From the NCBI GenBank assembly GCA_001600635.1, contig BCKL01000008.1, forward strand, positions 653,770-717,769: a stretch of DNA of 64,000 bases. Direction: 5' to 3'. Numbering within the stretch: position 1 is the first letter of the stretch; each line of letters opens with the position of its first letter. Positions 38,369 through 63,281 of the stretch are shown here, one piece after another. The stretch comes from Leucosporidium creatinivorum. Taxonomy: Eukaryota > Basidiomycota > Microbotryomycetes > Leucosporidiales > Leucosporidiaceae. Both the position numbers and the translations under genes were made by a program. The notes below the pieces were generated by a model. It was not told where the DNA came from, made no database searches, and worked only from the letters and a program-made list of their open reading frames with translations.

Positions 38369-40074
38369 CTAGAGTACAGTACCAGGCTCGTCTCCGACAT
38401 TCCCAACAATCGTTGGATTGGCAGCGCACGGCGTGTTGGTGCCCTTGACTGATGATAGCGACCGCCGAGGCGGAGGTTCAGTCAAAGCCATGAGCAACAA
38501 ATGAGTGTGGACATACCGTAGCAGTCGATGTCACGGTATACAATCAGCTCACATACTGCGTTCGAGTCTGTCGGAGACCAAGAACGTCAGTCAAAGGTGT
38601 CAATAAGATGAGGGGTCGGCGAGAAATCTCAGCTCACCGAGCGGAATGTCGGCGCAAGTCTTCTGATCGATGTCCAACAGATTGACCGCCCCGGGGGACC
38701 CCTGTGATTCTACAAAGCCAGGGTTCTCGGGGAGCTCGGAACAGTAACAGAGCCCATCACGGGGTGTGTAAATCGCGTTGAGGCTGTCTGCTCGGCGGAG
38801 AGGAATCCGGAGTCAATGCAGCAAGACGATGCGGTCGTGAAGAGTTCGATAAACTTACATCCCTGGTTATAGCAGAGCCTTATGCAGTCCCTCTCGAACG
38901 CTGCTTCCTTGGGGATCACGGCCGTCGACTCGGGGAATCTGAAGTTCGAGTACGCGTTGAGGAGGCGGTAGTAAGGCTTTGACTCGCTGCGGCAGGTGTT
39001 CTTGTAGGAGTAGAAGCCATCTATGCAAGTGACGGAGGAGGAGGTGCAGCTGAGGGCGAAAGCAGGGCAGTCGGTGCAGGTCAGGCCGGCTGGGTCGATC
39101 CAGGTAGGGGAGGGGCACTCTGTGTAGCATTTGCGCTTGTAGAGTTTGAAGCCAGGGGTACTGTGAAAGAGTTAGCCGTCAGCTACTGCTACTTCTCGGA
39201 GTACAGAGGCCCGAGAGCCCGAGGCAGAGCTCGGCGATCGTCTTGCGCGCGCGGAACACGGCGCTCACCAACTCAAAGGTCGGGTGGCGTCGCACTTGGA
39301 AGCGTTAGGATCATACTCGGAGCACGAGGTGCAGGCGCGAGCTCCGGCTGCGAGTAAGGAGGACGAGGTTAGCTCGGCGCCGAGAAGTCGACTAGCGAAC
39401 AGCCACTCACTCGTCGCTCCAAAAGTTCCAGCTGGGCATGAAGGCTTGCACTGTGAGCCATTCAGGAAGAAGGGCGAACGGCAAGCGGTAGCAGCGGTGG
39501 GAGTGCAGGTCGTGCTGCCGATGAAGTGGATCGAACAGGCGGAGCAGACGTGGTCTGCGAAGGGGCGGGCTCAGTCAGATGCTGGGTCCGTATGAGGCTC
39601 AGATACACTCACCCTTGCCGTAGAAGCCGCTTGGGCAGGCCGAGACGCAACGTTTGGTCGCTTTGTCGAGGAACTTGGTTGAGCTGCTCGGCGATGCGAA
39701 GAGTCAGCCTTCCGCCGCAGTTGCGCGAGCCGAGTAGAGACGTTTGACGCACCACGTGAGTGCACCAGCACTGTTGCATGTTGCGGCGTCCTTGAAGGTG
39801 GAGGTGCAGGGCACGCACTTGGTCTCTGAGGCGGGAGAAGGTGAGCGAGGGTTCTGCATTCGCTCAGAGCTACAGCGCGCCAAAAGACGTACTCAAGAGA
39901 TATTGACCCTTAACACAGGTTGCAGCGACTGCGATTGAGGTAAATGAGTTGCGAGCGCGTCGAGCGAGAAGTCAAGAAGCGGGAGAGCTCACCTGCTCGC
40001 TCGTCCAGGGAGGTGGGGACGGCCTGAGTAGACGTAGCCAAGAGTAGAGCAGAGGCGAGTAGAGAGTATAGCAT
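38369..40074 (-). CDS. Secreted cysteine-rich protein, family copy A
   Basis: Extracellular or wall protein of unknown function; the family occurs five times in this window. Signal peptide MLYSLLASALLLATSTQAVP, then furin-like/EGF-receptor-type Cys repeats: CVKGQYLL, CTSTFKDAATCNSAGALTW, FLDKATKRCVSACPSGFYGK, CSACSIHFIGSTTC, TACRSPFFLNGSQCKPSCPA, GTFG, CPSPTWIDPAGLTCTDCPAF, ALSCTSSSVTCIDGFYSYKN. The C-terminal part has CIRLC...GLCYCSEL, a spacing like WSC carbohydrate-binding modules, then CELIVYRDIDCYG. The last exon (stop 38369) encodes VKGTNTPCAANP and a short tail. About ten exons, each roughly one Cys block. Its promoter and 5' exons are nearly identical to those of copy C. Confidence 0.75.
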
Positions 40075-40375
40075 TGCTTGTGAGCTGCCGAGTTGAAGAT
40101 AAGAGAACAAAGAGAGAAGCAGCACGAGACTTTGAGCTGAAGGAGCGGGAGCCGGAGCGCAGAGGGGAAGCGAGGAGAGGCCAGGCCGCTCTCGCTCAAT
40201 CGACTCGACCGAGTTACAATCGGGGCGGGAGATGTCTCGCCAAGCAAGTAGGGAGGACCTTGACTTCGTAACCCCCTCCATGGCTCCTCCAGCGCTGCTT
40301 TCGGCCTAAGGCAAGCCATGCAGACCAGCTTCAAACTTTCCGCCGAGCTCCGAGACGACGGGAGTGCCGCATCGT
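39420..40375. repeat. Duplicated block, unit 1 (copy A 5' half plus promoter)
   Basis: This segment and 53660-54611 are near-identical in exons, introns and upstream flank, in the same orientation. The similarity includes intron sequence and about 300 bp upstream of the ATG, then stops near 40376/54612. Beyond 39420/53660, toward the 3' ends of the genes, it falls to ordinary paralog level. Confidence 0.8.
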
Positions 40376-41043
40376 CAAGCTCCCATCGAAGGAGGCTACA
40401 GCGGCTCTTGTACGAACTCTGAACTTTTCGCGTACAATCCTGAACGGCCAGCGCGCACCCATCGACATTGTAGCGAGAGTCACAGCAGGCGCTTGCCGTC
40501 GCCGCGTAGCTGCAGCGACGGCCAAGGTGGGCTGAAGCACCTCTGAGAGTACTGAGCAATGCACCGAGCTCACCCCGCTCCCTGAAAAGTCATGATCTCG
40601 CTTTGCGCCCAAAGAGTGGCTACGCAGGAGGTGCGAAGCTCGCGCCGAGCCGTGAATTGAACCCAGCGACCTCTCATGCACGGCACGGTGAACCCCTCGC
40701 CGAGGCCAGCCAGGAGGACTAGCATTCGCCTGCACTGCTGCAGCTCCTACGATCACGGAGTTGCAAGGGCGCTAGCGTCTACAAACGCGCGTTCAGCACC
40801 GAGCCTCCGACATCGCCGAGCGGCTCCCTGGCTTCGATGAGCAGGTAGTCCAAGTCTCGCCGTTCGCCTAGTCTCCACGCGCATCGGACGAGTCGGCTTG
40901 GTGTTTTTGAAGCATGATGATAGCATCCTGGGCGACCACCACGCCCCCGCATGCTGCTCGGCATGCGTTGCCCCGTCCTCCGTGCACCACACCACAAATT
41001 CCAGTCGAGAAAACACACAAACAGCTCCAATCAAGTCCACCGT
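40376..41043. other. Intergenic region, cysteine-rich copy A / RPS15
   Basis: About 670 bp without a supported gene. It contains the far upstream part of copy A and the RPS15 3' UTR. A B-box-like patch near 40640-40690 was examined and rejected as a tRNA. Confidence 0.35.
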
Positions 41044-41765
41044 TTACTTGAGGGGGATCTGTGTAGAGCGGAGGTGTGGTCAGCGAGGGATGAGAGGAGA
41101 GTTCGGCGAACGAGGCGCACGAAACGGGAGGAGTGGGTGGCTCCGATTCCGGGACGTCCGTGGCGAACGGGCTTGTAGCTGATGGAGAACTCGGCGAGGT
41201 AGTATCCGGTCATCTCGGGCTTGATCTCGACGGCGTCTGATGGGAGCGAATGCGGTCAGCGACCAAGTCTCCGCCGAGCGCCGAGGTCTCGTAGACGACA
41301 GCGAGAAGTTGCAGCACAACTCACTGAAGACCTTTCCGTTGTAGATTCCGATGACGGAGCCAATCATCTCGGGGACGATGATCATGTCACGGAGGTGGGT
41401 CTTGACGCACTCGGGCTTCTCACCGGGAGCGGCCTCCTTCTTGGCGGTGCGGAGCTTCTTCATGAGGGCCATAGGCTTGCGCTTGAGCCCACGCTGGAAG
41501 CGTCGGCGAGCACGAGCGTGGACCAGCTCGGTGAAGGCAGCCGAGTCGAGGTCGAGGAGCTGCGAGAGCTGTGGGTGGGTGGGAACGCGTGGATCGGCGA
41601 GGCGGCGAGGTGGAGTAGGGGAGGAAGACGGAGCGCAAGGTCAGCCCAGTGGTCCGACGTAGAGAGGTACATGGCAACGAGCGAACGCACCTCGACACCA
41701 CGGTAGGTGAACTTCTTGAAGGTGCGGGCACGGCGGTTCGCGGCGGCGATCTCGTCGGCGTTCAT
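41044..41765 (-). CDS. RPS15: 40S ribosomal protein S15 (uS19)
   Basis: Small-subunit ribosomal protein at the head near the decoding region. Exons give [120 protein letters not shown] and the terminal SRFIPLK, the last four residues from a separate exon. Stop 41044. The start at 41765 ([12 protein letters not shown]) lacks a longer N-terminus but agrees with several fungal S15 proteins; an upstream noncoding exon is possible. Four introns. Confidence 0.95.
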
Positions 41766-43137
41766 AATGGGCCTGTGGTGTGTAAGATGATAGCAGAGGG
41801 CGAAAGGAGGATGGTAGGGAGAGGGAAGAGGGTCAGCGCCCGCTTCTAGTGCGAACTGGGCACGCGTTGCGAGTGGTCCAATTTGGGCAGCATGCACCCC
41901 TGCAGAACGAGCAGCATTTCCTCCTGTACATCGTCCTGTGCAACCTCTTCCCGCTGCTGTCTGCTGGAGCCCTACAGAGGCAGAGGTTCCCCCTCCCGCT
42001 GAGTCTCCTCCCTCCGCTCGAGCAGCACCTCCCCCTGCTCAGCACAGAGGCCTTGGTTCCCCCTTGCTGCACCAGTCCATCACGGGTACATTCGTTGCCC
42101 CTGCGCCCGCTGCTGCTCCCGCCCCTGTAGCCCTCCCAGCGCTGCCCAGCGAGAGGGCACAGTTTTTCGTCGATTCCTCGAGTTCAAGCGGACGGCAGAG
42201 GGCGGGAGTGGTGAGAGTCGTGTAGGAGGGTGGCGGGGTGTATGTAGGTGCACAGGCATGCGAACCAACCGAGTTGAAGACTGACAGTTGGGCGAGGACA
42301 CGGTCAAAGGTGGAATCCCAGCCTCCGCGACTTGCTCTGGCAGCGCAGTCCCGTTTGGGAGCCCCAAAAAGTTGACCCGAACGGGGGTGACCTGCTCCGG
42401 CAAAGGTTGGTCCTGTAGTGAAGTCAAGTGGAGAGTGGGTGAGCGAAGAGAAGCTCTGAGCAGTTTCGGACACCTCTGTACTATCGTGCGCTAGCAGAGC
42501 TCCGTTAGCACTCAGCGAACGAGCGAAAGCCATCGCCGAGCTCTGCGAAACGCTCAAACCGAGATGGCGATGCACAATCTAGCGCTTCGTCCATGCATGG
42601 TCTCTTAGGACATATACTCCGCCTCCCTGGAGCCAAGGGTAGGCCTTGCCTGCTGAGCAGCAGCACCGTCTCCAAGCTATCGCCGAAGGGCTGACTCGGC
42701 GCAGGTCCGATGGGTGATAAAGAAAGATTGAGGTGTTGGTGACCATTCGGGCTCGAATGTGAACGCTGTAATAACCTCCTACTCACCCCCGGCGCCGGTC
42801 AGAGGAGCGAGAGAGCGTCGCGACAGACGAATTCGGCGCCAGCTCGGCTTTGAGGGGTCACTGCAGTATCGGAGCAGCTTGAGGTACATTTGAGCAACCT
42901 TGCTTTCCCTTTGAGCAGCTCTTCCAACCTGTTGAACCACATTTCTCGCTCCTCCAATTTGTTTCCTGACCTCGCTCTTAAGGGTTAGTACGGAGCATTG
43001 CTCGCCCTTTGCCTCTCTCCCTTCTCCTGCTCGCTCGTCTCTTGCTTCGGCTCTCGTACAGCTGTACAGGAGGAAAGTACAAGTCGACTGCTACCCCTCA
43101 ACCACCTACAGCAACCCTCACTCGAAGCCCTACTAGG
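41766..43137. promoter_or_regulatory. Divergent intergenic region, RPS15 / F-box gene
   Basis: About 1.37 kb between divergent starts. No gene with family resemblance. A Cys-containing open frame on the minus strand near 41840-42070 has no homology I recognise and no splice logic. Pyrimidine-rich tracts (42000-42040, 42100-42130) and TCGGCG copies (around 42280-42300, 42675-42700) are present. It includes the RPS15 promoter and, near 43050-43137, the F-box leader. Confidence 0.4.
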
Positions 43138-44316
43138 ATGGACAACCCGCTCGAAGCTGGCTCCCCTCCTCTCGCTCAGCCCGACGAAGCTCCCCGTCAG
43201 CTCCCCACGCTCCCCACCGAGATCCTGCAGCGTATCATTCAACTAGCGCTACCTCGAATCTCCTTCACCACCTTCCGAGAGCGCTACGACGTCCTCCTCA
43301 AATGCTGCCGCGTTAACAAGCTCTGGGCGGCGCTCGCGCAGGTGGAGCTATACCGCCATGTCAGCCTCACGGAGAAGCGCGCAGCGATCGCTTTCGGTCA
43401 AGGCAAGCGTCCCCCTTCGCTCAAGTCGCTCCGTCTCCTCGTCGACGACGACGAAGCGCAGGCCGCCGAGGTGCCGACGCCGCATGTGCGAACCTTGCTG
43501 GAAGCAACCTCGAGACTCGAAATGCTACAAGTTGTTGCTGCTAGGGACTGCGTGGGTCCGCCCCGTGTGCACCTCGAGGCGCTCTCGGCAGCTCTCGACA
43601 AAGGTGCGCCGAGACCGCTCGATCTGGGTGGTGTCCGCTGACACGCTACAATTGCAGGTCTCAAAGATCTTACAATCGACTACTGTCCTTTCATCTCGAC
43701 GCCCGACGACACTCGACTCGTCGGCAAGACCCTTCGTCGCCTTACTCTCTCCTTCCAAACCTCGGCCACGATCGCCTCGCTCCTCCTCTTGGCGCAGCTA
43801 CCACATCTCAACACTCTTCTTCTCGTTCATTCCAACCCGCCAGAGCCCGGGGCCGAAACGAGGGCCCTCGAGCACGCTCTCCTCGCTCATACCGCTCGGC
43901 TCACGTCGTTCGCCCTTGCCTTCAATTCGAACGACAGTCACTACACGCTGCGGGATGGCGTTTGGACGAGCTTCAAGACACTGGGCACACTTATGCTGGA
44001 CTGCAATGCCCCTATGGCTACCATCCTTCCTCTCTTGTCCAAGGCGCCTCTAGCTCACCTCCGCCTCCGCCTTCCATGGGACCTGCTAGCCGCCGTCAAC
44101 GTGCTTTCGGGCATCTACGAGGCACTTTCGACTACCCCCGAGACCCGGGGATCCCTGCGACGTCTCGCGGTCCCAGCCTTCGACGGCGACGAAGGCGCGG
44201 CGCGAGAATCCCTAGCCGACCTCTGCTCAAAACGGGACATTGAGTTGGTGGAAAGGCCCAGCTTTGAGCATGACCACGCTGTTCAGTCTCTTGAGGACGC
44301 TCTCGAAGATTGGTGA
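43138..44316 (+). CDS. F-box protein, LRR-like
   Basis: Probable substrate adaptor of an SCF ubiquitin ligase. After an acidic start (MDNPLEAGSPP) comes the F-box: QLPTLPTEILQRIIQLALPR, then CCRVNKLWAALAQVELYRHV. The remaining sequence has Leu-rich repeat-like periodicity: LKSLRLLVDD, SRLEMLQVVAA, GLKDLTIDYCPF, LPHLNTLLLV, FKTLGTLMLDC, APLAHLRLRL, SLRRLAVPAF. One intron is clear at about 43601-43659, joining DKG to LKDL. A GTGAGT at the stop may start a 3' intron, but it does not alter the stop (Trp then TGA either way). A frameshifted copy of its first quarter lies at 60769-61022. Confidence 0.8.
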
Positions 44317-44602
44317 GTGGCTCCTACTTGCCACTTCGCGCCTCGTTTGCTGACGGTTCGCTCGCTCGCTCGCAGGTGAAGCCGAGTAGCAGCAGGCCAG
44401 GCGGTGCTTGAAATGTCTAGCAGCGCGAGCGGAACAATGGAACAGAGCTTAGCTGTACTCTCTCGACTGTCTACGCGAGCCGAGCGCAGCGGATGAGTAA
44501 CTTGAGAGCGAGAGCCTCGAGAAGGCTCGAGGCTTGCTCGCGCACCCTTGCGGTCATAATCCATGCCATGAGCCATACAGTACACCCACTGGCGAGACAA
44601 AG

Positions 44603-46327
44603 CTACGTGCTCTGCACGCCGGGATCGGCAGCGCACGGCGTGTTGGTTCCGTCGACTGTCGGGAGCGAACGTCGAGGCCTCGGGTCAGCTCTGCGAGAGG
44701 ACGGCGACAGAGAGAGTGTACAAACCGTAGCAGACCTCATCACGGTAGACCACACGCTCACATACTCCATACAGGTCTGCAGAAGAGGGTATTTCGTCAG
44801 CAAACGTCCCCGACTTGACCGCGAAGCCATCGCCGAGCACTCACTCAATCGCTCATCAGTGCAGGGCGTCCTCTCGTGGCCGAGCACACCTGTCCAGAAG
44901 CTCGCAATGAACATAGCGGTAATGCCAGCTACCTTCCTCGAGCCGCTGAAGTCGAGGTCGTTCGAACAGGTGCAGAAGGGAGGGTCGGGCCGGAAGTCCA
45001 TGTTGAACTCGACGAAATCGTCTGTTGTGCGAGCGAGAGGGTGAGCGGTCGAGCTGCAAGAGAAGGGAGACTTTAGTACTCGCCTGAATGCGTGGCGCAA
45101 AAGTCGACACACTCCCTCTCCGTCTTGGCTTGGGCTGTCGAAAAGTCAAAAGTGGTTGCAGCCGAAGAAGCGACGCCCGGGATGCGGTAGTAGGCCTTTG
45201 ACTGGCTGGCACAAGTGTTCATGGAGGGGACGTATGGCGCCTCGCATGTGAGGACCTCGGTAGCGGTGCAGGTGAGGACGTGGGCGGGACAGTCGAGGCA
45301 GACCTTGCCCGTCGGGTCGGTGAAGGTGGCGGCGGGGCAGGAGCCGAGGCATTTGCCTTTGTACAGCTTGGTGCGGTAGACGCTGTGAATTAGAAGATGG
45401 TTAGCTTAGGGTAGCGAACAAGCCGTTGGAGCGTGCACGGTTCCCGAGGAAGTGCGAGAGCTCGGCGATAATTTGCCAGCTGTTGGGAGCGGACTTACCA
45501 GCTAAGAGCTTCGGTAGAGGTACAAGTCGAAGCATGAAGATCGAGCTTGGAGCAAGGCGTGCAGGCTCGGGGTCCAGCTGTGAGGCTTTCGAAGGTCAGC
45601 TCAGAGCCTCATTCTCGCCGAAAAGCCCGACACTCACTTTCCGCCCCAAACGTCCCAGCAGGACAAGCAGTAACGCACTTCCCCTCCGTTAAGAAGCGAG
45701 GTGAACGACAGCCAGTAGCGCCGATAGCCGTGCAGGTCGAGCTGCCGAGCCATCGACCAGCGCAGGGGGAGCAGACGTTGCCTGTCGAGGAGATGTCAGA
45801 GTTAGCTTGGGGCATTATGTGAGGGTCAGAGGAAACTCACTCCTCCCGTAGAAACCATCGGGGCACACGGCGACGCATTGGTGGGTCGTCTTGTCCAGAA
45901 ACTTGGTCGAGCTGCTCGGCGAAGAGGGAAGATCAGCTCCTGCTGCCCAGTCTCAAGGCGGGAAGCGTCGCTGGCTTACCACGAGGTAGCTCCAGCACTA
46001 TTACACGCTGTGGCATCGTCGAAAGTCGAAGTGCATGGCACACATTTGCTTTCTGCTCGGCGCAAAGATGAGGGAGGTCAGCTCGGCTTTGTGCAGACCT
46101 ACGAGGGCTCGGCAGGTCGAGAAAAATCCTACTCAGGAAGTATTGACCAGGAGGGCAGGTCCTGGGTACACCGACTGGTGTAGCAGAGGTCAGCAACGGC
46201 GAACGGCAGCTAGGGGAAGGAGGCGGGCACAGAGAGGCTCACTCTCTCGCTCTGCGATCTCGGCGGCGGCGGGAAGAGCTCGGGCGCTAGCGGTGAGGAG
46301 TAGGACAGCGGCGAGAAAACGGAGCAT
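44603..46327 (-). CDS. Secreted cysteine-rich protein, family copy B
   Basis: Paralog of copy A. Signal peptide MLRFLAAVLLLTASARALPA; Cys repeats FLDKTTHQCVAVCPDGFYGR, CSPCAGRWLGSSTC, GCRSPRFLTEGKCVTACPAG, TFGAE, CTPCSKLDLHASTCTSTEAL, KLYKGKCLGSCPAATFTDPT, KVCLDCPAHVLTCTATEVLT and CASQSKAYYRIPG. The WSC-like part is KTERECVDFCATHSG followed by PPFCTCSND; then VCERVVYRDEVCYG. The last exon encodes VDGTNTPCAADPGVQST with stop at 44603. It converges on the F-box gene and lies downstream of RPN7. It has the same number and order of Cys blocks as copy A but is well diverged. Confidence 0.75.
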
Positions 46328-46728: not shown

Positions 46729-48605
46729 TCAACCGACAACCCTACTCAACCTCTGCACGCTAGTCAACACGACATCCCCCTGCTTGATGACGGCGCCGTA
46801 GCGCGCATTCTTGGCGTCTGGTCGGTTGGTCGTGACGATGCCGGCGACGCGGTCGATGGAGGCGTTCAGCCGACCGAGGGCTATGAGGCGAGAGAGGTCG
46901 CTGTTGGTGTGTGAAGAGTAGGGGGAGGGGGAAGGGGAGGGGAGGGGAGGGAAGGAGGCGGTGGTGCGGGGTGGTGAGGCGCAGGGGCAAAGGCAGGGGA
47001 GGAATGGCGAGGGCGAGGGCGAGGGCGAGTGTGAGGCCGAAATATCGAGGGGCGAGGTGGGAGGGAAGAAGGCAGAAAGAGAAGTCAGCAAGTTCCTCTT
47101 GCCTCAGGCAAGCAAGCCGCCAGCAACTCACCCATCCAACCACCCCACACTAACTCCGAACGCCTCGCTCAGACTCTTGAGCGTGACCGACGAGTAGCTC
47201 TCCAACAGCTGAGCGTAGGCCTTGATCCGCATCTCGCGGACGTAGTAGCGCGTGTGCTGTGAGAGGAGGCGCGAGGGGAGGAGGTGCAGGGTTTCCACTT
47301 CGGCTGCGAGGCGGGTGAGGCGGGAGGGGAGAGGGAGACGAGGAGAGATGGGATGGGATGGATGTTAGTGAGGGTGCGGGAGAGGAGGAGGACGGGCAAG
47401 ACGGACCGAGTGCAAGGAAGAAGGCCTTGTAGTCGCACTTCCATAGCGAGGAGGCGAGGTTTTGCAGCGAGGGGACGGTGGGGAGGAGGGCGATGACTTC
47501 GGGGGCGTCGATGATCTGTGTGGTGTGAAGACGAGCAAGGGATCAGCGACGACTCGGCGGCGCAGAGAAGACGGGCGCCGAACTCAGCGCCGAGAGGGGA
47601 GAGTCTACGCACCTTCTTCTTCAATTCCTTCCTCTCCAATGTCAAAGTCCCAGCCACCACCACCAATTTGACAAATTCGTCGTAATCAATCAACTCGGTC
47701 GCCGTGAAAGTGGAGAGGGTGTCGAGGAGGAGTTGCGCGCCGGTCTGGAAGTTGCGTATCGAGAGGAGGTACAAGCCCTCGTACGCTTTGAGGCGGTTCC
47801 GGCGGTCCCAGTCGCCTCCGGATTCGATGAGACTAGGGGGAGAGAGAGAGAGGGAGGGAGGTTAGCTCGGTCCTAGAGTCCTCGCCCGCCGAGCAGGCAA
47901 GATAGCACAGAGGGCAAAAGGTCAGGCTCACATCTTTGCCTGGTCGATGCCTTCCTGGATGACCTTGTGATCGCCGTGGAACAGGCCGATGCGAATCATG
48001 GCCAGTCGGAGGTCGATCTTGGATCCCAGGCCGGCGGTCTTCTCCAGCGCTTCCGTGTGAGCGGCGAGGGCTGCGTCCTGTGTAGCAGAGTAGATTCGAA
48101 ATGATGCAGAATGGCGATGGAGAGCAGGTAGGCGAGGGATTGTTGATTAGCGAACGACCTCCAGCTTACGCGTCCAACGACGACGGACCTTCTCTCCAAT
48201 CCTAGCCAAATACAGCGCCTTGGCCTTTAACGCATCGCTAATCTCGGTCTCTCCCAAATTGGTCTTGGCGTCCTCGAGATCAGCGTCGAGTTTGGTGAGG
48301 TGGGTTTTGTTGGTCGCTTGGAGCTTGGAGAGCAGGTGGTTGGAGTCGTCGGAGGAGAGGAGCGAGGAGGAGATGAGGTGGGAGAGGTAGGGCGCCATTT
48401 CTGTGGTATCTCAGAGTCAGCTAGAGCCCTACAGAAGCTGCAGCAAGGGGGACTGACCATCCTCCTCGATGCCCTTGAGCAGGTCAGCTCGAGCGTCAGC
48501 GTGTGAGGATGAGGATGAGAGGGTCGGCTGGGACAAGGTGAACGAGTGTTGAGCGAGTACGAGGTTGGGAATAGGAGCTACTACATCATCATTAGGAGTC
48601 GCCAT
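46729..48605 (-). CDS. RPN7: 26S proteasome lid subunit Rpn7 (PSMD6)
   Basis: PCI-domain subunit of the 19S regulatory lid. From the ATG at 48605: [160 protein letters not shown] and [20 protein letters not shown]. The PCI winged helix follows as [20 protein letters not shown] and [20 protein letters not shown]. Ends at 46729. An intron at 46901-47131 is purine-rich on the plus strand, so the transcript is pyrimidine-rich there. It is head-to-head with RPN6. Confidence 0.93.
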
Positions 48606-48730
48606 TCTGTGTTGTTAGTGCCGATTTAGTTTGGAGAAGCGAGAAGTAAGAGGGAGAGAGAGCTCCAAGCTTGGACTCTTACCACGTCTCCTTCTCGTTA
48701 CAAATTGACTCGGCTACAGAACAACACAGC
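48606..48730. promoter_or_regulatory. Bidirectional promoter shared by RPN7 and RPN6
   Basis: Only 125 bp separate the two ATGs. Both genes have the same leader, ACAACACAG, one base before ATG: on the minus strand before RPN7 (48607-48615) and on the plus strand before RPN6 (48721-48729). The two form a perfect inverted repeat at the ends of the spacer. I see no GGTGGCAAA Rpn4/PACE element in the spacer. Confidence 0.7.
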
Positions 48731-51700
48731 ATGTCAGACAGTACAGCACCCAAGCGCACAGAGCAACAATTACAGACTATCCTCTCCCAGCCAGCAGGTC
48801 CGTCCACCACCTCACTGACGCGTCCCTTCTTTTGGAGCTCAGCTCACCTCGGTCCTACTCCGCTACAGGCCCCAAGGACGACCAGCTGCTCAAGGAGAAG
48901 GAGACTGCCATCCATGAGCTCGCGGGGCTGTACCGCGATAAGCAAGATGCGACGGCTTTGGCTCAACTCGTCAACGACTCGAGGCCTGTGATGGAGCACC
49001 TGGCAAAGGCAAAGACGGCCAAGCTGAGTACGTACTACCTTACTCACCATATTACAGCCCTGCTCGGCTTGTCTGTAGCTCTTTAGACGACACCGCTGAC
49101 GCCGCCCGATGCCTTTCGACAGTTCGCACCCTCCTCGACAACTTCTCGGCCATCCCCAATGCCTCCAAGCTGCAGATCCAAGTAACAAAGGACAACATCG
49201 ATTGGGCCAAGCAGGAGAAGCGCATCTTCCTCAAACAATCGCTCGAGACTCGGTTGATTGCTCTGTGCGTTCCGCTGCCCTCTCTCCCTCCACTCAGCCT
49301 CATCCGCTGAGCTTCTTCTATGTTCGACGCCGCAAACAGCTACATCGACAACTCGCACTTCAAGGATGCCCTCGCCCTCATCAACTCGCTTCTGAGGGAA
49401 CTCAAGAAGCTGGACGACAAGATGGTCTTGACCGAGGTTCACCTGCTGGAGAGTCGGGTGCACTATGCCCTGAGTAACCTACCGAAGGCTAAGGTGTGTA
49501 GTCTGTTCTGGTCTCTGTAGGGGCTGAGGTGCTGGACGAGGGAGACGGAGATGAGGTCCTCAGGTTCGGCGATCGCTGACTTGGCTTCCTCTCCTCTCCT
49601 GCCCGTCCTTCTTCTCCGCCTCCTACCCCTTCCCCCTTCCCTCTTTCCCATTCTCCCACCCTGCCTCCCTCACCGCCCCACCCCCCCTGCCTCCATCACT
49701 CTCCCTCATCTCCCTAACTCCTCACCTCGTCCTCCCCTCCGGCTCGCCGCCCACCTCTCCCTCCTCCTTTTCACCCACCCACCCAATTCGCCTCTCCCAC
49801 TCCCGTCGCTCGCTCCCAAACTCAAAACTCACAGGCCGCCCTCACCTCGGCCCGCACCTCGGCAAACTCAATCTACTGCCCTCCCCTCCTGCAAGCGCAG
49901 TTGGACATGCAGAGTGGTGTCCTACATGCCGAGGAGGGGGATTATAAGACTGGGTGAGTTGGTTTGATGAACTGGAGGGGTCGCTGGGGCTGGGTTGGGA
50001 GGGCGACGAGTGGGAGGCGAGGCCGAGAGCGATCAGGGTTGTGGGCTGGCGATGCAGGGAGGAGATGAGGAGGGCGAGACGAAGCGTAGGCTGGAGGGAG
50101 GGAGGTAGGATGCCAGGCGACCGAGAGCCGGGACTTGGGCGCTGAAGACCGAGGGGTTCTCGGCCGAGGTTCATGATTCTTGGGGTTCGGGATGCCTTCG
50201 CGGCTCTGTTGCTCGGTCGCTATGTATCGACGAGGAGATATTCGAGGAGGGGTTTGCGAGAGGAGTGGACTGGGCAGCTCGCTGAGGTTCGAAAGAGCTT
50301 CGGCGGGCGTTCATCTCCTCCCCTCTTCGTTCCTCTCGCGCGCTGCAGGCTCGTGAGGGGCAGCAGACGGCTCGCAGTCATCGGCGCTCAGCTTCGACTC
50401 GGTAGAGTTGAGGATACCGCTCCTGAAATGGTTGTACGTGCGTCCCACTCGGGCCGCTCGGTGGAGCGTTGGCAACGAGCTCGGCAGGCGGCGTGAGAGA
50501 CGCTTTGATCGGTTCGCTGATGCCTCAAAGGCGTCGGCGGGCGCTTATCAAACGCTCGAACCACGTCGTTCTCCTTCTCACTCGAAGCTTGGCGACAGCT
50601 CAAAGGCTGCGTTAGGTTCAGCTTTCGCCCGAGGGCATCCGACGACAACTGAGCTGGCTGCTGGAGATCAGGAGATCACTGGCGGCGGCTCTTGTTCTTG
50701 GCGTCACGCTTGTCCTTCGCTCTGTGGCTCCACGCGCGAAGTATTGAGCTCGCGTGAGCGGGACCGACCTCTGAGCATGAAGTTCTAGCCGAGACCAAGC
50801 AGGTCTCGGCGGGCGCTTCTGGAGTTCCGGGTCCATCACCTCGCGCTTGGTCTTCCATCGTCGGACCACTGCTTCCATGCTTGAGTCTTGCCGACTGGCG
50901 AGCTGGCCGAGGCCCATCGCTTGAGCGCCGCCGAGGAATAGTAGCACCTTCGGCGGTCGCTGATTGAGAGTAGGTATCCGTCGGCTTACCTGTGCCGTCG
51001 GCTTCGTTGATGGACCGGCGTGAGTTGGCAGCAGGCGACGGCGAGATGGACGCAGCGCCGAGGACTCGAGAGAGCCTCTGGCGGGCACTCTCCCTCGTCT
51101 CGTCCCACTTCTCCGCCCCTCTCGTCGACCAAGTGCGCGAGTAGCTTCGGCTCTCACCCGTCTCGCCATCAATAGCTTCTCTCCCTCGACCCAGAGCTCG
51201 AATAATCGCTGACCTCCGCATCTCGCCCTCCACAGATACTCCTACTTCTTCGAGGCGCTCGAAGGCCTGTCCTCGCAGGACGACCCCAAGGCGACTCCGG
51301 CACTCAAGTACATGCTGCTGTGCAAGGTCATGCTCAACCTAGTGCGTTCCGCTCTTCCACTCGCTCGTTGACCTCCGCTGACGGTCGCTTCCTTCTCATC
51401 TCGCCCACCCCTCTTGCTCCACTCTTCTCGCCCTCGCCTCTCGTATCCACATCTTCCTCGTGCACAGCCCGAGGACGTCGCTTCCATCATCTCGGGCAAG
51501 CTGGCGCAGCGCTACGCTGGCCCCGAAGTCGAGGCGATGAAGGCCGTGGCCAAGGCGCACGAGGATCGCAGTCTGAGTGACTTTGAGAGGCTATTGAAGG
51601 AGCACAAGAAGGGTGAGTTTTAGCCGAGGTCAGAGCTCATGACGAATCGGACGCTGACCCCGCTTGCTCCACTCGAACAGAGCTCTCCGACGACCCGATC

Positions 51701-52291
51701 GTGCGCAACCACCTTTCGGCCCTGTACGACACGCTACTGGAGCAGAACCTTGTCCGCATCATCGAGCCCTTCAGACGCGTCGAGATTGCCCACATTGCCG
51801 AGCTCGTCAAGCAGCCCGTGAGGGAGGTGGAGAGCAAGTGAGTTTGGTTCTTACTTTTCGCCGGTCGCTCGAGACGTTTCGGCAGTTGATGTGGAGCTGG
51901 AGATGCTCGACGCGAGAAGAAACGAGGTGAGATGCTGACCGCCTTGCTTCCTCCCGCCAGGCTCTCGCAGATGATCCTCGACAAGGTCTTCCACGGTGTG
52001 CTCGATCAGGGAGCAGGATGCTTGATTGTGTATGACGAGCCGGAGGAGGATGTACGTTGCTCGTCTCTTCGTCTCGCTTCTATTCGTTCGGCGCTGACCT
52101 TCCTCCATCTCCCTCTTCCCGCTCCCCTTCTCCCTTTCTCATCGCACGCCCGCTCATCTCCACCTTCAATCTTGACTTTCATCTCGTCCCTCCAATACGA
52201 GCAGAAGACCTACGACGCCTCCCTCCAGACCATTGGCCATGTGAGCCAGATCGTCGACCAGCTCTTCCAGAGGACGAGGGCAATCGTCTGA
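48731..52291 (+). CDS. RPN6: 26S proteasome lid subunit Rpn6 (PSMD11)
   Basis: PCI-domain lid subunit that braces the lid against the 20S core. The ATG at 48731 begins [14 protein letters not shown]. Then: [160 protein letters not shown] and [83 protein letters not shown], ending [12 protein letters not shown] at 52291. Introns include one of 341 nt (49494-49834) and one of 1282 nt (49954-51235). Confidence 0.93.
49954..51235 (+). other. Outsized 1282-nt intron in RPN6
   Basis: Donor GTGAGT after AAG ACT GG, acceptor CACAG before ATAC. The join gives [12 protein letters not shown], matching Rpn6, so the intron is real. It is more than ten times the usual intron length here. I see no conserved coding frame on either strand. 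Phrases with GGCGGGCG recur near 50298, 50536 and 50805, and a related GGCGGGCA at 51074. Confidence 0.75.
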
Positions 52292-52607
52292 GCTGCTGCT
52301 GTAGAGCGTTTGAGCCCGCTGAGCCTAGGAAGGCAAGCGAGGAACGTGATGAAACGATGAACAGTCGTTATGTACAGCTTCGTGGTCGCAGGGGAGCGAA
52401 AGGTCTTCTCGGCGAAGAGATCTCGCGTGTGAACGGGCTGGAGGGGATCGCGCTCTGCAGGCATAAAGGGACCTGATACATTTCTTTGAGCTTGAGGAAG
52501 CCTTCCCCCTGTCACTTTTGCGCGCTAATCAAACTAAACTTCAAGCTGAGAACCGAACCCGGAGCACTTCATTGCTTCCACCTTGCCCTCCTTTCCGCCA
52601 TCTGACG
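52292..52607. other. Convergent 3' spacer, RPN6 / copy C
   Basis: The 316 bp between convergent stops. No gene or obvious structure seen. Confidence 0.4.
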
Positions 52608-54318
52608 TCATTGATACCCCACAGCACACGGAGTATTGGTGCCCTTGACTATTGGGAGCGAACGCCGAGACCGAGATTCAGTTTCGGCGACGATGAAAGG
52701 AAGCGGGGACGCACCGTAGCAGGTCTCATTGCGGTAGACCACAAGCTCGCAATCAAGGTTGCCCGACGATCCTGCGCGATACCGATATGATTAGTCAAGC
52801 TTCTTGACAAGGGCACAGAAGGGGCAAAAGCAACTTGCCGACCACCCTGAGCTGAAGATCGGAACACGTCATGCCGGACGTGGTGCTGAAGACAGAGATG
52901 AAGCTAAAGGCCGCATAGACGTATCGAGGGAGTTCGGGGGAGGGGGCGTCGTAACAGCCACAGTAAGTACTCCCGTCTGAGCTCTGGAAGATCACTCTCA
53001 TATCATCTGTTCGGCGATTCGGAGAGGCAGTAGATGCGGTCAGCTCTCCTGTACAAAGTCTTGCAGCTGGTGACCTGCAGGTGGAAGTACTCACCTCCCT
53101 GGATGGCGCAGAAGTTGACGCATTGCCTCTCGGTCTTTGCCTTGTAACTGACGGAGAGGGAATTATCGTCTCCGTCCTGCGTGAGAAAGCCAGGAACACG
53201 GTAGTAGGGCTTGGACTCGGCGGCGCAAGTGTTGTTCGATGGGAAGTAACCGTCCTCGCAGGTCAGGACGGAGGAGGAGGTGCAGCTGAGGGCGCGAGGA
53301 GGGCAGTCGGCGCAGGTCTTGCCAGCTGCATCGACCCCGGTGAGGGAGGGGCAATCCTTGTAGCATTTGCCCTTGTACAACTTGAATCCATCGGTGCTGT
53401 ATGAGAGCGAGCCGTCAGCTATAGCTCCTCTACAGAGCACAGGGTGTGGAGGAGCGGCGAGGAAAGTTGGGCGATAATCTGGGGAGCCAGAGAGATGCGG
53501 CTTACCAGCTCAAAGCTTGCGTAGAGTTGCACTTGGAAGCGTTAGGGTCCACCTTGGAGCACGAGGTGCAGGCGCGAGCTCCAGCTGGAGTCAAGGAGGA
53601 CGAGGTCAGCTCGTCGTTTCAACCTCGGCAAGCGCCGGCGGTCGCCCACTCACTCATTGCTCCGAAGGTTCCAGCTGGGCATGAGGGCTTGCATTGGGCT
53701 CCATTCAGGAAGAAGGGCGAACGGCAAGCGGTAGCAGCGGTGGGAGTGCAGGTCGTGCTGCCGATGAAGTGGACCGAACAGGCGGAGCAGACATGGTCTG
53801 CGAAGGGGCGGGCTCAGTCAGATGTTGGACTCGTCTGAGGCTCAGATACACTCACCTTTGCCGTAGAAGCCGCTTGGGCAGGCCGAGACGCAACGTTTGG
53901 TCGCCTTGTCGAGGAACTTGGTCGAGCTGCTCGGCGATGAGAAGAGTTAGCCTTCTACCGCAGTTGCGCGAGCCGATTAGGGGCGTTTGACGCACCACGT
54001 GAGCGAACCAGCACTGTTGCATGTTGCGGCGTCTTTGAAGGTAGAGGTACAGGGCACACACTTGGTCTCTGAGGCGGGAGAACGGTGAGCTAGGGTTCTG
54101 GGCTCGCTCAAAGCTACAGCGCGCCAAAAGACGTGCTCAAGAGATATTGACCCTTAGCACAAGTCGCAGCGACTGTGAATGAGGTAGGTCAGCGTCGAAT
54201 GCGTCGAGTGAGAAGTCAAGAAGCGGGAGAGCTCACCTGCTCGCTCGTCCAGGGAGGTGGGGACGGCCTGAGTAGACGTAGCCAAGAGTAGAGCAGAGGC
54301 GAGTAGAGAGTATAGCAT
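52608..54318 (-). CDS. Secreted cysteine-rich protein, family copy C
   Basis: Closest relative of copy A. Signal peptide MLYSLLASALLLATSTQAVP is identical to A. Cys repeats follow in the same order: FLDKATKRCVSACPSGFYGK, CSACSVHFIGSTTC, CRSPFFLNGAQCKPSCPAGT, DGFKLYKGKCYKDCPSLTGV, KTCADCPPRALSCTSSSVLT, CEDGYFPSNNTCAAESKPYY. The WSC-like part is KTERQCVNFCAIQGGEYFHL and GSTYCGCYDAPSPE; then DCELVVYRNETCYG. Last exon VKGTNTPCAVGYQ, stop 52608. 5' exons and introns are near-identical to A, while the 3' exons are only paralogous. Confidence 0.75.
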
Positions 54319-54611
54319 TGCTTGTGAGCTGCCGAGTTGAAGATAAGAGAACAAAGAGAGAAGCAGCACGAGACTTTGAGCTGAAGGAGCGGGAGCGCCA
54401 GAGGGGAAGCGAGGAGAGGCCAGGCCGCTCTCGCTCAATCGACCGAGTTACAATTGGGGCGGGAGATGTGTCGCCAAGCAAGTAGGGAGGACCTTGACTT
54501 CGTAAACCCCTCCCATGGCTCCTCCAGCGCTGCTTTCGGCTCAAGGCAAGCCTCGCAGACCAGCTTCAAACTTTCCGCCGAGCTCCGAAGCGACGGGAGT
54601 GCCGGATCGTC
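53660..54611. repeat. Duplicated block, unit 2 (copy C 5' half plus promoter)
   Basis: Partner of 39420-40375, same orientation. Includes identical signal-peptide exon, near-identical introns and the upstream flank with its GAACAAAGAGAGAAGCAGCA stretch. Scattered substitutions and small indels separate the units. Confidence 0.8.
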
Positions 54612-55109
54612 GACGTGCAGCAAAGGAGGAAGCAGCTATTATTGAACAGCACAAGAGAGCCATATCCAACGTCCAACCCGCTGTAGGCTCCCACCTTGCC
54701 GTTCTCGCTCTCCGTTGAGCTCCAGCGCCCCTCCCCGCCATCGCCGGGCCCGAGCAGTGGTAGTTTGTCTTCGCGGAAGGCGAGCCGAAGACATAGGCCG
54801 CTCATCAGGACGACCGACTGCACTCTTACTCCATAACACTCTCGCACTAGCATCAGCTGGTCTCGACAGGAAAGCAGCTCCACTCTTCGGCGATCCTGTG
54901 CTCAAGACCGAAAGCTCACACTTCTCTTCCTCTACATTAGGTGAGCCCAGCAAGACAGCACCAGAGTACTCAAATTTCAAACAAAGCTTTGATGGACCTA
55001 ACCCAGCCTGAACGCGCCTTGAAACCCGAAAATCGACCCCTCCCACCTCGCGCTCTGCTTCGCCCTCGGCTCGTCTAAGCAACAGACTGACGCCCGCCTT
55101 GATCTGAAT
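54612..55109. other. Intergenic region, copies C / D
   Basis: About 500 bp between the end of the duplicated block and the stop of copy D. No gene supported; CTGTAG and TCGGCG copies present (54682, 54888). Confidence 0.35.
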
Positions 55110-56801
55110 CACGAGATAGGAGCTACCTTCTCAGTAGCGCAAAGTGTGTTGGTGTTTTGCACTGTTGCAGCCGAGGGGCAGGACTCCGGTAAGCCTCTTC
55201 AGAAACTCGGCGAAGGCGAGAAAGACGAACCGAAGCATTTCTCCCCGCGGTAGACCACGACCTCGCAGACACCGGTAGGATCTGCAGGAGAAGCTTCAGT
55301 GTCAGCAACGGCAGAGACACCTTCCCGAGAGTCTGGCAGACTCACTGAGGAGGGGGTTGCTGCAAGTGTCGTTGTCCGCTCGGTCTCGAGCGATGAGACT
55401 GACAACACCGGGAGCTGCAGTGGTGTTGTACTCAAAGCGACCGGCGCACGTGCAGCGCTCGGGAGTGAGGCGGAAGGTAGTGAAGTAGTCGGGGTCGGCT
55501 GGAGAGCAGGCGCCGAGCGATGGTGAGTCCACGATCGAGCGCGAGGGGGAGTCACCAGGCTACTCACTACCCTGTGTAGCGCAAAAAGCAAGACACTGCC
55601 TCTCAGTCTTTGCCTCGGTGGTCGAGTAGTCGACGTAGTACTGCTTGTCGCCAGAGAAAGCGGCGCCGGGGAGACGGAAGTAGGGCTTGGATTCGACGGT
55701 GCACGCGTTGCCCAGGGGGTAGAAGCCTGTAGCACATGTGAGGACCTTGGTAGAGGTGCATGTGAGGGCGTTGGTGGGGCAGGCGAGGCAGGCGTTGGCT
55801 GTCGAATCGGCGAAGGTAGCAGAGGGGCACCGCCTGAGGCATCTGCCCTTGTACAGCTTGGTCTCGGCATCACTGTCAAGAAGAGCCACGGTCAGTACCG
55901 CTCTCCAACGTTGCCGCCGAGGAGGGAGAGAAAAAGCTCGGCGAAGACTCCTCAGCGAGAGAAGACTTACCAGCTCAGAGCCGCAGTAGAGGTGCAAGTG
56001 GTAGCATGTAGGACCACCTCTGAGCAAGGCTTGCAGGCGCGCGATCCGGCTGCGGGAGAGAGTTGGCGGTGAGCTCGGCTTAAGCTCGGCGACGAAAGGG
56101 CATCTCTGGCTCACTCTGGAGGGCATAAGTTCCCGCGGGGCAGGCGCTAGCACACTTCCCGCCAGTGAGGTAAAGAGGGGAGCGACATCCAGTAGGACCG
56201 GTAGCACTGCATGTCGAGCTGCCATAATAAGCAGTGGAGCAAGTCTTGCAAACGTGATCTGCGCGAGAGAGAGAGAGAGAGAGAGAGTAAGCAATGGTTG
56301 AGTTTTTTCCAACTGCAGGAAGATCTACCCTTTCCATAAGACCCATCGGCGCATACAGCGACGCAGCGCTTCGCCGCCTTGTCGAGGAAGTTCGTCGAGC
56401 TGCTCGGCGATGAAGGAGAATCAGCTCTTCTCTCGCTATGTGTGGAAGGACGAGTCGGCGACGTACCAGGAGAGGGCACCATCTTTGTTACACGTCGCCG
56501 CATCGTCAAAAGTCGACGTGCAAGTTGCGCACCTGCTGTCTAACGAGCGGAAGGCGAGGGGGGTCAGCTCGGCGCTTGCAAGCTGCTGCTACTCTCCGAG
56601 TGATTGCAGAACCTACTCAAGAAGTATTGACCAGTGGGACAGGTCCTAGGTACTCCGACTGAGGTAGCAGAAGTCAGTACAGTGGACGACGAGGGACGGG
56701 GAAGCCAGAAACTCACTCGCTCGCTCGTCGAGGGAGGCGGCAGGGAGAGCTTGAGTGGAGACGGCGAAGAGAAGAGCTGAGGCGAACAGAGTGTACAGCA
56801 T
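55110..56801 (-). CDS. Secreted cysteine-rich protein, family copy D
   Basis: Paralog of A-C. Signal peptide MLYTLFASALLFAVSTQALP; Cys repeats FLDKAAKRCVAVCADGSYGK, TGCRSPLYLTGGKCASACPA, KLYKGRCLRRCPSATFADST, NACLACPTNALTCTSTKVLT, CATGFYPLGNACTVESKPYF. WSC-like part KTERQCLAFCATQGSE, then PERCTCAGRFEY; then GVCEVVVYRGEKCF. Last exon VQNTNTLCATEKVAPIS, stop 55110; the TNT-x-CA core is kept. One intron (around 56260-56290) holds a (GA)n run. The gene structure follows the family plan. Confidence 0.72.
56265..56287. repeat. (GA)n microsatellite
   Basis: About eleven GA dinucleotides in a row inside an intron of copy D. A similar shorter run is in a permease intron near 5265-5280. Confidence 0.9.
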
Positions 56802-57596
56802 CCTTGCAAGAAGCTGAAGATGCGTGAGAGAAGAGAAAGAGCAGCAGAGCGAGCGATTTGATTGTTGAGCGGGAGGGGGAAAGAGGGGAAGCAAGAGGCA
56901 AGGTGGAGGGGCCTGGCCAAGCTCGCTCGGCCGGCGAGGGCAGCGGGAGTGACTGACACTGTCTCGTCAAGTAGCTCGTATATGTATTCCCTTTTCTAGC
57001 ATCTTCTCCTGCTCTTTTGAGCTTGAAGAGAATCGGGAGCAGAGTCACGAGCAATCCCGAACCCTCGTCCAGCAGCACGGGAATGCCATGTCGACGAGTG
57101 GGGCTCAGCAGCCTACAGATCCCCCTTGGTCCATCTGGTCATTTGACCTTAGCCTCCTACGATTGTAGAGAACGCACCGGGGGTACGGTTGGCGAGCTCC
57201 AGCTCAGATCCTGCCATCGCCGAAGCGTCGGCGTCCGACTCCGCCAGGAGGTGTTGGAGCACCTGCAGGGCGCTTGGAGCCACACGAGGGCGAGTGTAGA
57301 CGTCTGATCGTACATCGAAAGCTGCTCGAGCCGAGAACAGTCAGCAGCATTCGATGGCGGTACGAAACCTTCGCCGAGCGAAAGGTGAGCTCGCTCTCAT
57401 TCGTCTGGTGGCGCGGTAACGCGAGCCGCTCCGAGGCGTTTCCAAGAAGAAGCCGAGTCTCGGACCCAGGTATCCCATGAGCTCGGTCGACGCAGCCTTC
57501 GCGGGTCTCGTTCGAAGCTCTCAGTCTCATCTCTCGAAGGACAGCAACGAGATTTTGATGGTAGGTGGGTTGGCAACAGCGATTAACCGGAACAGA
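56802..57596. other. Intergenic region, copy D / RPP2
   Basis: About 0.8 kb between the start of copy D and the RPP2 stop, both minus. No gene supported. TCGGCG/CGCCGA copies at about 57219-57235 and 57372. Confidence 0.35.
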
Positions 57597-58115
57597 TTAA
57601 TCGAAGAGTCCGAAGCTGTAGTGGGGGTGAGAGGGAGACGAGGTCAGCTCGGTGCTCATCGAAATCGGTTCCTCCGTCAACACGTCGTCCGCTGCACTCC
57701 TCCAAGCAGCACGGTCCCCGAGCTGAATCATCGACTCACCCCATGTCGTCGTCGGACTCCTCCTTCTCCTCCTCCTTGGGCTTCTCGGCCTCGGCGGCGG
57801 CAGCGGGGGCGGCTCCTCCGGCAGCGGCGGCGGAGGGGGCAGCGGCTCCTCCCGAGGGGACGGAAGCGAGCTTGGCGGATCCCTCCGCGATGAGCTCGTT
57901 GATGTCCTTGCCCGAGAGCTCGGAGATCAACTTCTCGAGGCGCTCGGCATCGGGGGTGATGCTGCGAGAGGGCGAAGGGTCAGCATGCAACTCGAGCAGA
58001 AGAGTAGGACCACAGTAACGCACTCGACGGTGGCGAGGAGCTCGGTGACATCAGCAGCCGAGGGGGAGGCGTTTCCACCGGAGACGAGGAGGAGGTAGGC
58101 GGCGACGTGCTTCAT
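57597..58115 (-). CDS. RPP2: 60S acidic ribosomal protein P2
   Basis: Stalk protein of the large subunit that recruits translation factors. Three exons: [20 protein letters not shown] ending TELLATV, then [39 protein letters not shown] with an Ala/Gly-rich hinge and a Glu/Lys-rich acidic stretch to ESDDDMG, and a last tiny exon FGLFD. The terminal SDDDMGFGLFD is the diagnostic P-protein tail, here split by an intron between GG and C of its Gly codon. Stop 57597; about 110 residues. Confidence 0.95.
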
Positions 58116-59100
58116 CTGTAGCGTTGGAGGCAATTCGAGCAGCGGCGGATGGAGGTGCAAAAGTTGATGGCGGATGAATTGATAGAGATGATGTAGGTGA
58201 TGATAGAGGTGAAGGAGCGGCAGTGCAGTGAGGTGAAGGAAAGAGTCAGCACGCGTCCCTCATTCCCAGCAGTTTCTGATGTCGAGCATAATTTCCCCCC
58301 GCCTGCGTATACACCTCAGCAACCCGCTCCTGCTACCTGCAACCCATCCTCATCCCACCTCGTCTTTGCAACTGCTCCTGCTTTCCTCCTCGTCTCCGTC
58401 TTCTCCCTCTCTTCTGCAGCCGAGTACACGCCTCGAGCGGTCGTCCAGTCGATAGGTGGAAAGCAATGTACCGTTGATCTGTCGAAGGACTTTGAGCAAA
58501 AGCGGAAGAACGATGCAGAAGAGGCCAGAGGACTAGGCGAGGACTTGCAGAGGGCTCGAATTTTTGTTCGACGCCCGGTCGAGGTCAGCCCGTCGAGCTT
58601 GCTCCCGCTCCGTGCAGGTTGTTGTTCAGCTTGTTAGGTCAGGGCGAGTCGGAACGCTCGAGATTGAGGGTTCAATTTGCCTGAAGCGACCCGCTGTACC
58701 ACAACACCCTCCCTGAGCTCTCTTCACAGCTTCGGCGTTGCTTCGCTTGGTGGTATCGCTCGGTTGTAGCAGGCGACTCGCGCGAAGGTCCAGCGCGACA
58801 TCGGTCTTCAGCAAGTACAGCATCGTATGCCTCGTCGACAGTAGAGCACAGCATCGAGCGACCTCCCGTGAGCGGCGGGGCGCTTCGCTCGAACAGCCCA
58901 CTTCGAGGAGGCCTGTCAACGAGCTTAAAAGCATGTTCAACAGATCACTCATCGCCAGGAGGAACAGTGCATCGGTCGCATTTGACTTGTACATTAACAA
59001 TACTGACAATCCAGCTGCCTTCCTCACCCTGCCCTTTGCCGAGCCCAGTCGCAGCGTCCCAGTGACCTGGTTTGGTCGAGCTTGGTACAATCGAGGTTCG
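58116..59100. other. Intergenic region, RPP2 / copy E
   Basis: Close to 1 kb. A plus-strand frame at 58197-58637 and a minus-strand frame running beyond copy E to 58626 are open but show no family resemblance and are probably chance. The RPP2 promoter lies at the left. Confidence 0.35.
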
Positions 59101-60281
59101 TCACTTCTGAGGGCAGTAACCGCCTGTGCTCTCCACTGTAGATAGCGAGGAGAGGGACAAAGGTCAGTTTCCGTCCTTGCGCCGAGCGCCGAGATGCTTT
59201 CTTCATTACTCGTTGACGCCAGGTGACCCTCAGACTCACAGTGGCACCCCTCTCTATCGTAGTAGACCTGCATGGAGTCGCCTCTGTTCCACCCACCAAC
59301 TTCACATCGCTCGATTCGGTGGGTGACCTCGTGAACGTCTCCTTCGCTCGTCTTGGGGTAAGTGACCGAGTTGTCGGCGCAGGAGCAGATCGGGTTGTAG
59401 TATCCTCCGAATTGAGCGAGCTTGAGCTTGGAGGTGGGCACGTCTGTCAGCGAAGGGGATCGATGAGCTATCGCCGAGGGCAGAAGCGGGAGCTGAAGGG
59501 GCACGTACTGGCTACGCACCAGCGCAGGCAGCGCTCGTCGGAGGAAACGGTTCTGGTAGAAGCCAGAGGCTCGCCGACGAAGGTTTTGGTGCGCCGAATG
59601 GTCTTGCAGTAGGAAGGGTTGACGCAGGCTCCGTTCTTGAGGGTCTTGGTCGCGCTGCGTGGCGTTGAAAGCAGATAATATCAGTCAGCTCTTTCTTTAT
59701 GGCCCAAAGCCTGGCGGAGCAACAGAACCGGGGGACACCAGCGGCAACAAAGGGCAGGGAACTCATCGCCGAAGAGTCGCTTCCGTGAGCAGCGCCGAAT
59801 AGAGCACTCACCAACTTGTAGCACCTTTAGCATCGCAGGTGAGAGCGTCAGGGTCGGCGCACGGAGTACATTTGTCGGCTGGAGACGGTGGAAAGCCGTC
59901 AGCAAACGGCGCCGAGCAGTGTCGAGATCAAGAACTCACTCTTGGGGTCGACGAAGCTCCTCTCGGCGCACTTGGGCTTGCAAAGACCTCCTACAAGGTT
60001 GAGGTTGAGGTTACTGTCTGCGAGAATATAGGGAGGTGGATCAGCGGATGAAGACGGGAGTGGTTCGCCGAGCAGGGTTGCAGTACTCACCAGCCGAGGA
60101 GATCCAAATCGGGCAACGCCAGCTCCAAAATCGCTGCTTAGAGGTAATCGGATCAGCTAGCGACGAGAGGATTGGGCAGACGGCGCTTACGATGGCGTTT
60201 GAGCAGCTCGGGAGTGTCGGAGGCAGGCAAAGCCGAGACTATGGAAACGAGACCAGCGAGAAGGGCGAGGTTGGGAATCAT
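59101..60281 (-). CDS. Secreted cysteine-rich protein, short divergent family copy E
   Basis: The shortest family member. Signal peptide MIPNLALLAGLVSIVSALPA, then fewer Cys blocks: GLCKPKCAERSFVDPK, ADKCTPCADPDALTCDAKGA, TKTLKNGACVNPSYCKTIRR. WSC-like part SSDERCLRWCVAS and FGGYYNPICSCADN, then MQVYYDREGCH. The last exon LESTGGYCPQK ends at 59101, joined by a normal intron (GTGAGT, CTGACC, CTACAG). The order Cys repeats, CxxWC...CxC, VYYDxxxC, short Cys exon matches copies A-D although sequence identity is low. The exon model is less certain than for A-D. Confidence 0.62.

Positions 60282-61022: not shown

Positions 61023-63281
<2,259 letters not shown>

Follow-up and report, generated by a model that had tools for sequence, protein, structure and literature searches.

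A family of predicted secreted cysteine-rich proteins scattered through the Leucosporidium creatinivorum genome, with two 5′-mosaic members

The window analysed here is a stretch of 64,000 nucleotides from the basidiomycete Leucosporidium creatinivorum (assembly GCA_001600635.1; 27.7 Mb, 63 contigs, GC content ∼59%), spanning positions 653770–717769 of contig BCKL01000008.1, hereafter C8. Five related genes for predicted secreted, cysteine-rich proteins, named A to E, lie on its minus strand over 22 kb. The minus strand was read and the genes were spliced by hand, and the exon structures are therefore predictions from sequence. Copy A (38369–40074) has 10 exons and encodes 355 residues with 32 cysteines, 23 located N-terminal to a C-terminal domain and nine within it, behind a signal-peptide-like start. 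Copies B (44603–46327; 357 residues), C (52608–54318; 350 residues) and D (55109–56801; 351 residues), the last directly upstream of C, likewise have 10 exons and 32 cysteines. Copy E (59101–60281) is a shortened relative of seven exons, 219 residues and 16 cysteines, which still has the C-terminal domain together with the final repeat region. In each of the five genes the frame stays open, and the outer borders are exact, position 38369 being the stop of A and 60281 the start of E, in agreement with a sequence-only reading of the window that had proposed five genuine minus-strand genes.

Copies A–D contain nine introns each, whose phase is equal at every junction, and exons 3–6 have the same lengths in all four (73, 71, 144, and 79 nt). 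GC-AG borders are required in three of the 42 predicted introns, namely intron 7 of B (45083–45022) and introns 2 (54136–54069) and 8 (52838–52772) of C; in each case the donor sequence is otherwise good and reads GT in the three paralogues. The signal peptides, called from hydropathy and by eye rather than with a dedicated predictor, have 19-residue hydropathy means of 1.45–1.84. The spliced models contain every element that the sequence-only reading had listed: the signal-peptide-like start, cysteine blocks, CxC, the VYR/YYD-x3-C motif, and a separate last exon bearing a cysteine (TNTPCA in A–C, TNTLCA in D, GGYCPQK in E). With such a start, many conserved cysteines, and several paralogues, the genes have the features of a secreted cysteine-rich multigene family. 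Pairwise protein identity is 47–70% among A–D and 21–25% between E and A–D; E aligns to the last half of A–D with an hhalign E-value of 0.0013 and a probability of only 18%.

The last ∼130 residues of A–E, and of members elsewhere in the genome, form a domain with the pattern C…CxxxC…CxC…C…C…C…C. In an alignment of this domain from 10 of the 22 loci found in the genome (see below), eight cysteine columns are invariant and one is nearly so, being shifted in E, and every domain has exactly nine cysteines. Profile comparison by hhalign of A–D with copy E and family member G, with member F, and with members F2, H, and I gave scores that none of 60 cysteine-preserving shuffles reached in any of the three comparisons, which bears out a shared C-terminal homology across A–E. 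When the 10 domains were scanned against Pfam as single sequences, no listed family matched more than one of them. Sequence searches of the PDB with the domain returned no convincing relative, the best match being a putative lipoprotein at an E-value of 0.41, and D alone gave only 0.72. The PAN/apple domain (PF14295) was considered and dropped; its likeness to the family consists of a weak match to one of the 10 domains (E-value 0.018), from which the other nine differ in having none.

The domain had been likened in the sequence-only reading to WSC carbohydrate-binding modules (PF01822). The family order CxxxC…CxC…C…VY is indeed spaced similarly to that of WSC, and the secretion signal and the common strand of all five copies would suit a set of surface proteins. 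However, the Pfam WSC model gave no match listed up to an E-value of 10 in the five full proteins or the 10 C-terminal domains, in searches whose HMMER filters discard most matches above 0.1, and with that model three matches were obtained in other parts of this genome, at two loci. Against a profile built from only these three genome WSC pieces, one of them cut short, the A–D score was reached by four of 60 cysteine-kept and two of 60 full shuffles, and the score of F2, H, and I by 47 of 60. E plus G and F gave probabilities of 0.8 and 0.2% (not shuffled), compared with 99% for a WSC-versus-WSC control. The motifs AGxxYGxEC and CGG each occur in two of the three genome WSC pieces, the third reading CGVQYHGEC and ending before CGG; A–E contain no CGG, AGxxY, or GxEC, and elsewhere in the family GPEC in G and AGTAY in I are found, with the remainder missing. 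The WSC assignment is thus not upheld, and the WSC-like spacing may reflect a similar disulfide layout.

A surface anchor, as expected of an adhesin, did not appear either. Past the signal peptide, the maximal 19-residue hydropathy mean is 0.89–1.17 in A, C, D, and E, and the last 15 residues of A–E show no hydrophobic tail. The lack of a strong hydrophobic segment past the signal peptide argues for soluble secretion over a glycosylphosphatidylinositol- or membrane-bound adhesin, although the argument is weaker for B.

The N-terminal part carries 23 of the 32 cysteines and gives weak matches, below cut-offs, to furin-like and growth-factor-receptor repeats. E-values for the Pfam family Furin-like_2 are 3.4e-4 for B, 3.7e-4 for C, 0.017 for D, and 0.13 for A, with none for copy E; the best score is 21.2 bits, compared with the cut-off of 28. 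A profile of A–D matched R-spondin among PDB sequences weakly (E-value 0.045). The likeness to R-spondin and other furin-like repeats (Furin-like_2, GF_recep_IV) lies in the repeated short cysteine-rich units of the N-terminal two-thirds; such repeats are the best weak Pfam matches for B and C and make up all 11 PDB matches listed. They differ in belonging to animal proteins, in scoring under the curated cut-offs, and in that the common C-terminal domain is not seen in them.

Searches of the genome with D, E, the C-terminal parts, and F, together with reading by eye, identified 22 loci with the C-terminal domain. This count is a lower bound, and two of the loci, F2 and a gene near 383 kb of contig C17, were recognised by eye. 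Eleven lie on C8 (A–E, G near 630 kb, and loci at 897, 916, 972, 984, and 1023 kb), four on C17, three on contig C9, and four on contig C38. Four are known by the end of the domain only: at 897, 916, and 984 kb of C8 the last 28–30 residues were matched (E-values 3.6e-5 to 3e-6), and the fourth is the C17 gene near 383 kb. Equal scores were obtained for the loci at C8 972 kb and C8 1023 kb and for those at C9 867 kb and C38 214 kb, the members of each pair being oppositely oriented. Each pair may represent a recent duplication or an assembly duplicate; since both could be the latter, at least 20 loci are distinct. F, on C17, has the complete architecture, with 370 residues and also 32 cysteines. 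Two relatives, L026 on C9 and L030 on C8, were seen by eye to contain long runs of DADAATCTSTAATS-type cysteine repeats, apparently with the same C-terminal domain at the end. The five-member set is a related cysteine-rich, predicted secreted family, as had been proposed, but A–E are part of these 22 loci. Matches to STE3-type pheromone receptors, and introns that are short and closely spaced, accord with a basidiomycete yeast. A link to mating type was considered and discarded, both STE3 matches lying on contig C25, which is not a family contig. A possible subtelomeric link was also considered. A pattern search for TTAGGG repeats, by a method that skips simple repeats, found none; degenerate TTAGGG-like repeats are seen in the last bases of C17, C8 terminates in a run of G, and the ends of C9 and C38 are without repeats.

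Within the window, A and C are alike in their 5′ parts to a degree that is not kept up downstream. BLAST aligned them over 1430 columns at 86.6% identity, beginning ∼300 bp ahead of the start codons and running into exon 7. On the A side the high-identity tract occupies 39432–40376 (minus strand), starting ∼300 bp before the start codon and extending to exon 5, with BLAST likeness continuing to 38966; on the C side the alignment covers 53199–54611 (minus strand) and ends within exon 7. In steps of 100 columns, identity is 0.89–1.00 in nine steps (40330 to 39433), 0.63–0.83 in the next five, and 0.39–0.59 thereafter, save 0.76 at the last exon. Likeness is about 83–100% over the upstream DNA, introns 1–4, and exons 1–5, and drops close to background in the C-terminal domain and introns 7–9. 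For the introns, identity is 0.83–0.91 in introns 1–4, 0.61 in introns 5–6, and 0.41–0.63 in introns 7–9, the background from all nine introns of the pairs B/D, A/B, and C/D being 0.36–0.65. Fourfold-degenerate sites differ at 15 of 110 positions before the SKPYYR motif and at 11 of 23 after it (Fisher p = 0.0006), and the change point at such sites, located in exon 7, was equalled in two of 5000 permutations (1391 of 5000 for B/D). Because the introns fall in identity as well, selection on the protein alone does not explain the break. The pattern fits A and C being mosaics, which may have arisen by ectopic gene conversion or by partial duplication of the 5′ part.

Among the six A–D pairs, protein identity is 55–86% before SKPYYR and 31–40% after it. 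The dN/dS values (nonsynonymous to synonymous divergence) obtained by simple counting are roughly 0.2–0.35 before the motif and 0.3–0.7 after it, and are rough ratios. In each of the 12 pair-by-half comparisons dN is lower than dS, and it exceeds dS in three of 24 sliding windows along A/C. Of the proposed fast-evolving set, divergence is supported, and it is greater in the C-terminal part; positive selection cannot be claimed, dS being saturated.

The order of genes is A, RPS15, an F-box-like gene, B, RPN7, RPN6, C, D, RPP2, and E, and Pfam confirms the S19 (RPS15), F-box-like, RPN7, RPN6_N, and 60S acidic protein (RPP2) families among the copies. RPS15 (uS19; 41080–42038, minus strand; one exon piece tested with Pfam, extent by eye) and the F-box-like gene (43138–44316, plus strand; Pfam) separate A from B. 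The genes of two proteasome lid proteins, RPN7 (46729–48577, minus strand; two pieces tested, extent by eye) and RPN6 (48709–52291, plus strand; N-terminal piece tested, end by eye), lie between B and C, and RPP2, of which 57736–58050 (minus strand; Pfam) is a part, lies between D and E. C and D are adjacent, with a gap of 790 bp and no recognised gene between them; the one open frame tested there (54639–55130) had no Pfam match. Separation of the copies by conserved genes thus holds except between C and D.

This interleaving had been thought unusual and ascribed to essential neighbours that keep the array in place. The F-box-like gene itself belongs to a large family with 104 matches in the genome; the best 27 of these, at 22 places that include the gene itself and a shortened, inverted 5′ fragment beside E (60829–61152), all lie on C8 between ∼193 and 715 kb. 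Since this family is likewise scattered along C8, related copies on one contig are not peculiar to A–E. Unrelated genes between copies were observed only in this window; judged from the scattered F-box family, interleaving looks ordinary for this genome and would need no special explanation from essential neighbours. Five of five copies would fall on one strand by chance in one case in 16, and the family is found on four contigs. Same-strand copies alternating with conserved genes are supported; a special five-gene array held by essential neighbours is not.

A short motif is abundant in the window. CTCGGCG/CGCCGAG occurs 135 times in the whole window, compared with 25.8 expected from dinucleotides, and is spread across it, and GCTCGGCG occurs 57 times (7.9 expected). 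The core CGCCGA/TCGGCG is present in 25 of the 42 introns of A–E (31 matches in 3105 bp), compared with only 12 matches in 4911 bp of exon. A literature search for the motif found nothing relevant among the papers listed.

Taken as a whole, we consider it probable that A–E belong to a larger family of soluble, secreted, disulfide-rich proteins composed of a signal peptide, furin-like cysteine repeats in variable number, and the nine-cysteine C-terminal domain. The copies would have arisen by intrachromosomal duplication and become dispersed between genes unrelated to them, which also seems true of the F-box family. The 5′ two-thirds, comprising the promoter and a repeat stalk, may have been exchanged among paralogues through ectopic gene conversion or partial duplication, and the C-terminal domain would diverge faster than this part. 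The stalk could hold out or space the C-terminal domain, which would bind a ligand, protein or glycan, outside the cell. Predicted secretion, together with a rigid stalk of disulfides and a terminal domain that diverges faster, suggests binding outside the cell, and we infer that these are soluble secreted binding proteins whose target may be the organism's own wall, a mate, a competitor, or a host.

Several observations weigh against this explanation or parts of it. The gene models are predictions from sequence and need the three GC-AG introns. The furin-like assignment lies under the Pfam cut-off and is weak, and the sole fold attempted, which took exon 7 aligned across four copies, gave a predicted local distance difference test (pLDDT) score of 42. 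The C-terminal domain of F compares weakly with that of F2, H, and I (E-value 0.077, not shuffled), so that the domain may comprise two subfamilies. B has a moderately hydrophobic stretch, with a mean of 1.40 from residue 295, within the C-terminal domain. In 10 of the 12 pair-halves dS exceeds 1, which leaves the dN/dS ratios rough and positive selection unclaimed. The A/C break is graded, passing through 0.63–0.83 after exon 5 into exon 7 and returning to 0.76 in the last-exon region, and the change point that fits it best falls within exon 7. A tree of the C-terminal part still weakly joins A and C (support 80/78, with long branches meeting), so the two whole genes may have an old relation. 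At fourfold-degenerate sites, C/D differ less in the C-terminal part with one of two cuts (cut 140, p = 0.007), in the opposite direction to A/C, and B/D differ more with the other (cut 226, p = 0.04), in the same direction.

A different account would make these lineage-specific, effector-like secreted proteins acting on a host or competitor and diversified in an arms race. The proteins are predicted to be secreted, cysteine-rich, and multigene, and their C-terminal domain diverges faster. A cysteine-rich family of nine members in Microbotryum lychnidis-dioicae (MVLG_05513, 05514, 05515, 05533, 05534, 05538, and others), seven of which are predicted to be secreted, offers a possible parallel (PMC4469406). 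Six of its members are clustered in the genome, with gaps in the run of their locus numbers, and are presumably interleaved with other genes. The two families are alike in the general features of cysteine richness, multiple genes, and predicted secretion. With dS saturated, positive selection cannot be claimed, and we regard this account as possible but unlikely.

Plain birth and death of a gene family would leave a cluster without common function, made of duplication relics with some copies decaying. The scattering of the F-box family and its shortened fragment beside E agree with this, the three GC-AG donors could be mutations, and E is shortened. However, the five frames remain open over 7–10 exons and 32 cysteines are maintained in A–D and F; dN lies below dS throughout the pair-by-half comparisons, and the proteins look constrained. 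Relics of this kind are a distinctly improbable explanation. A set of WSC-type carbohydrate-binding surface or adhesin proteins, held in place by essential neighbours, is very improbable, given the profile comparisons above, the absence of a strongly hydrophobic C-terminus, a shared strand that chance could supply, and the occurrence of the family elsewhere in the genome.

For the soluble secreted family favoured here, a group of 20 or so genes has been defined from one genome, with a C-terminal domain to which single-sequence scans assigned no Pfam family and a cysteine signature that can be searched for in related yeasts. Located 12.5 kb from each other, with five genes in the interval, A and C provide a concrete pair for examining possible 5′ exchange between dispersed paralogues. 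It is conceivable, though we think it rather doubtful, that the nine-cysteine domain represents a hitherto undescribed module for extracellular binding and that an exchangeable promoter and stalk, joined to an independently diversifying domain, work as a combinatorial set; if so, expression control and specificity would be shuffled separately.

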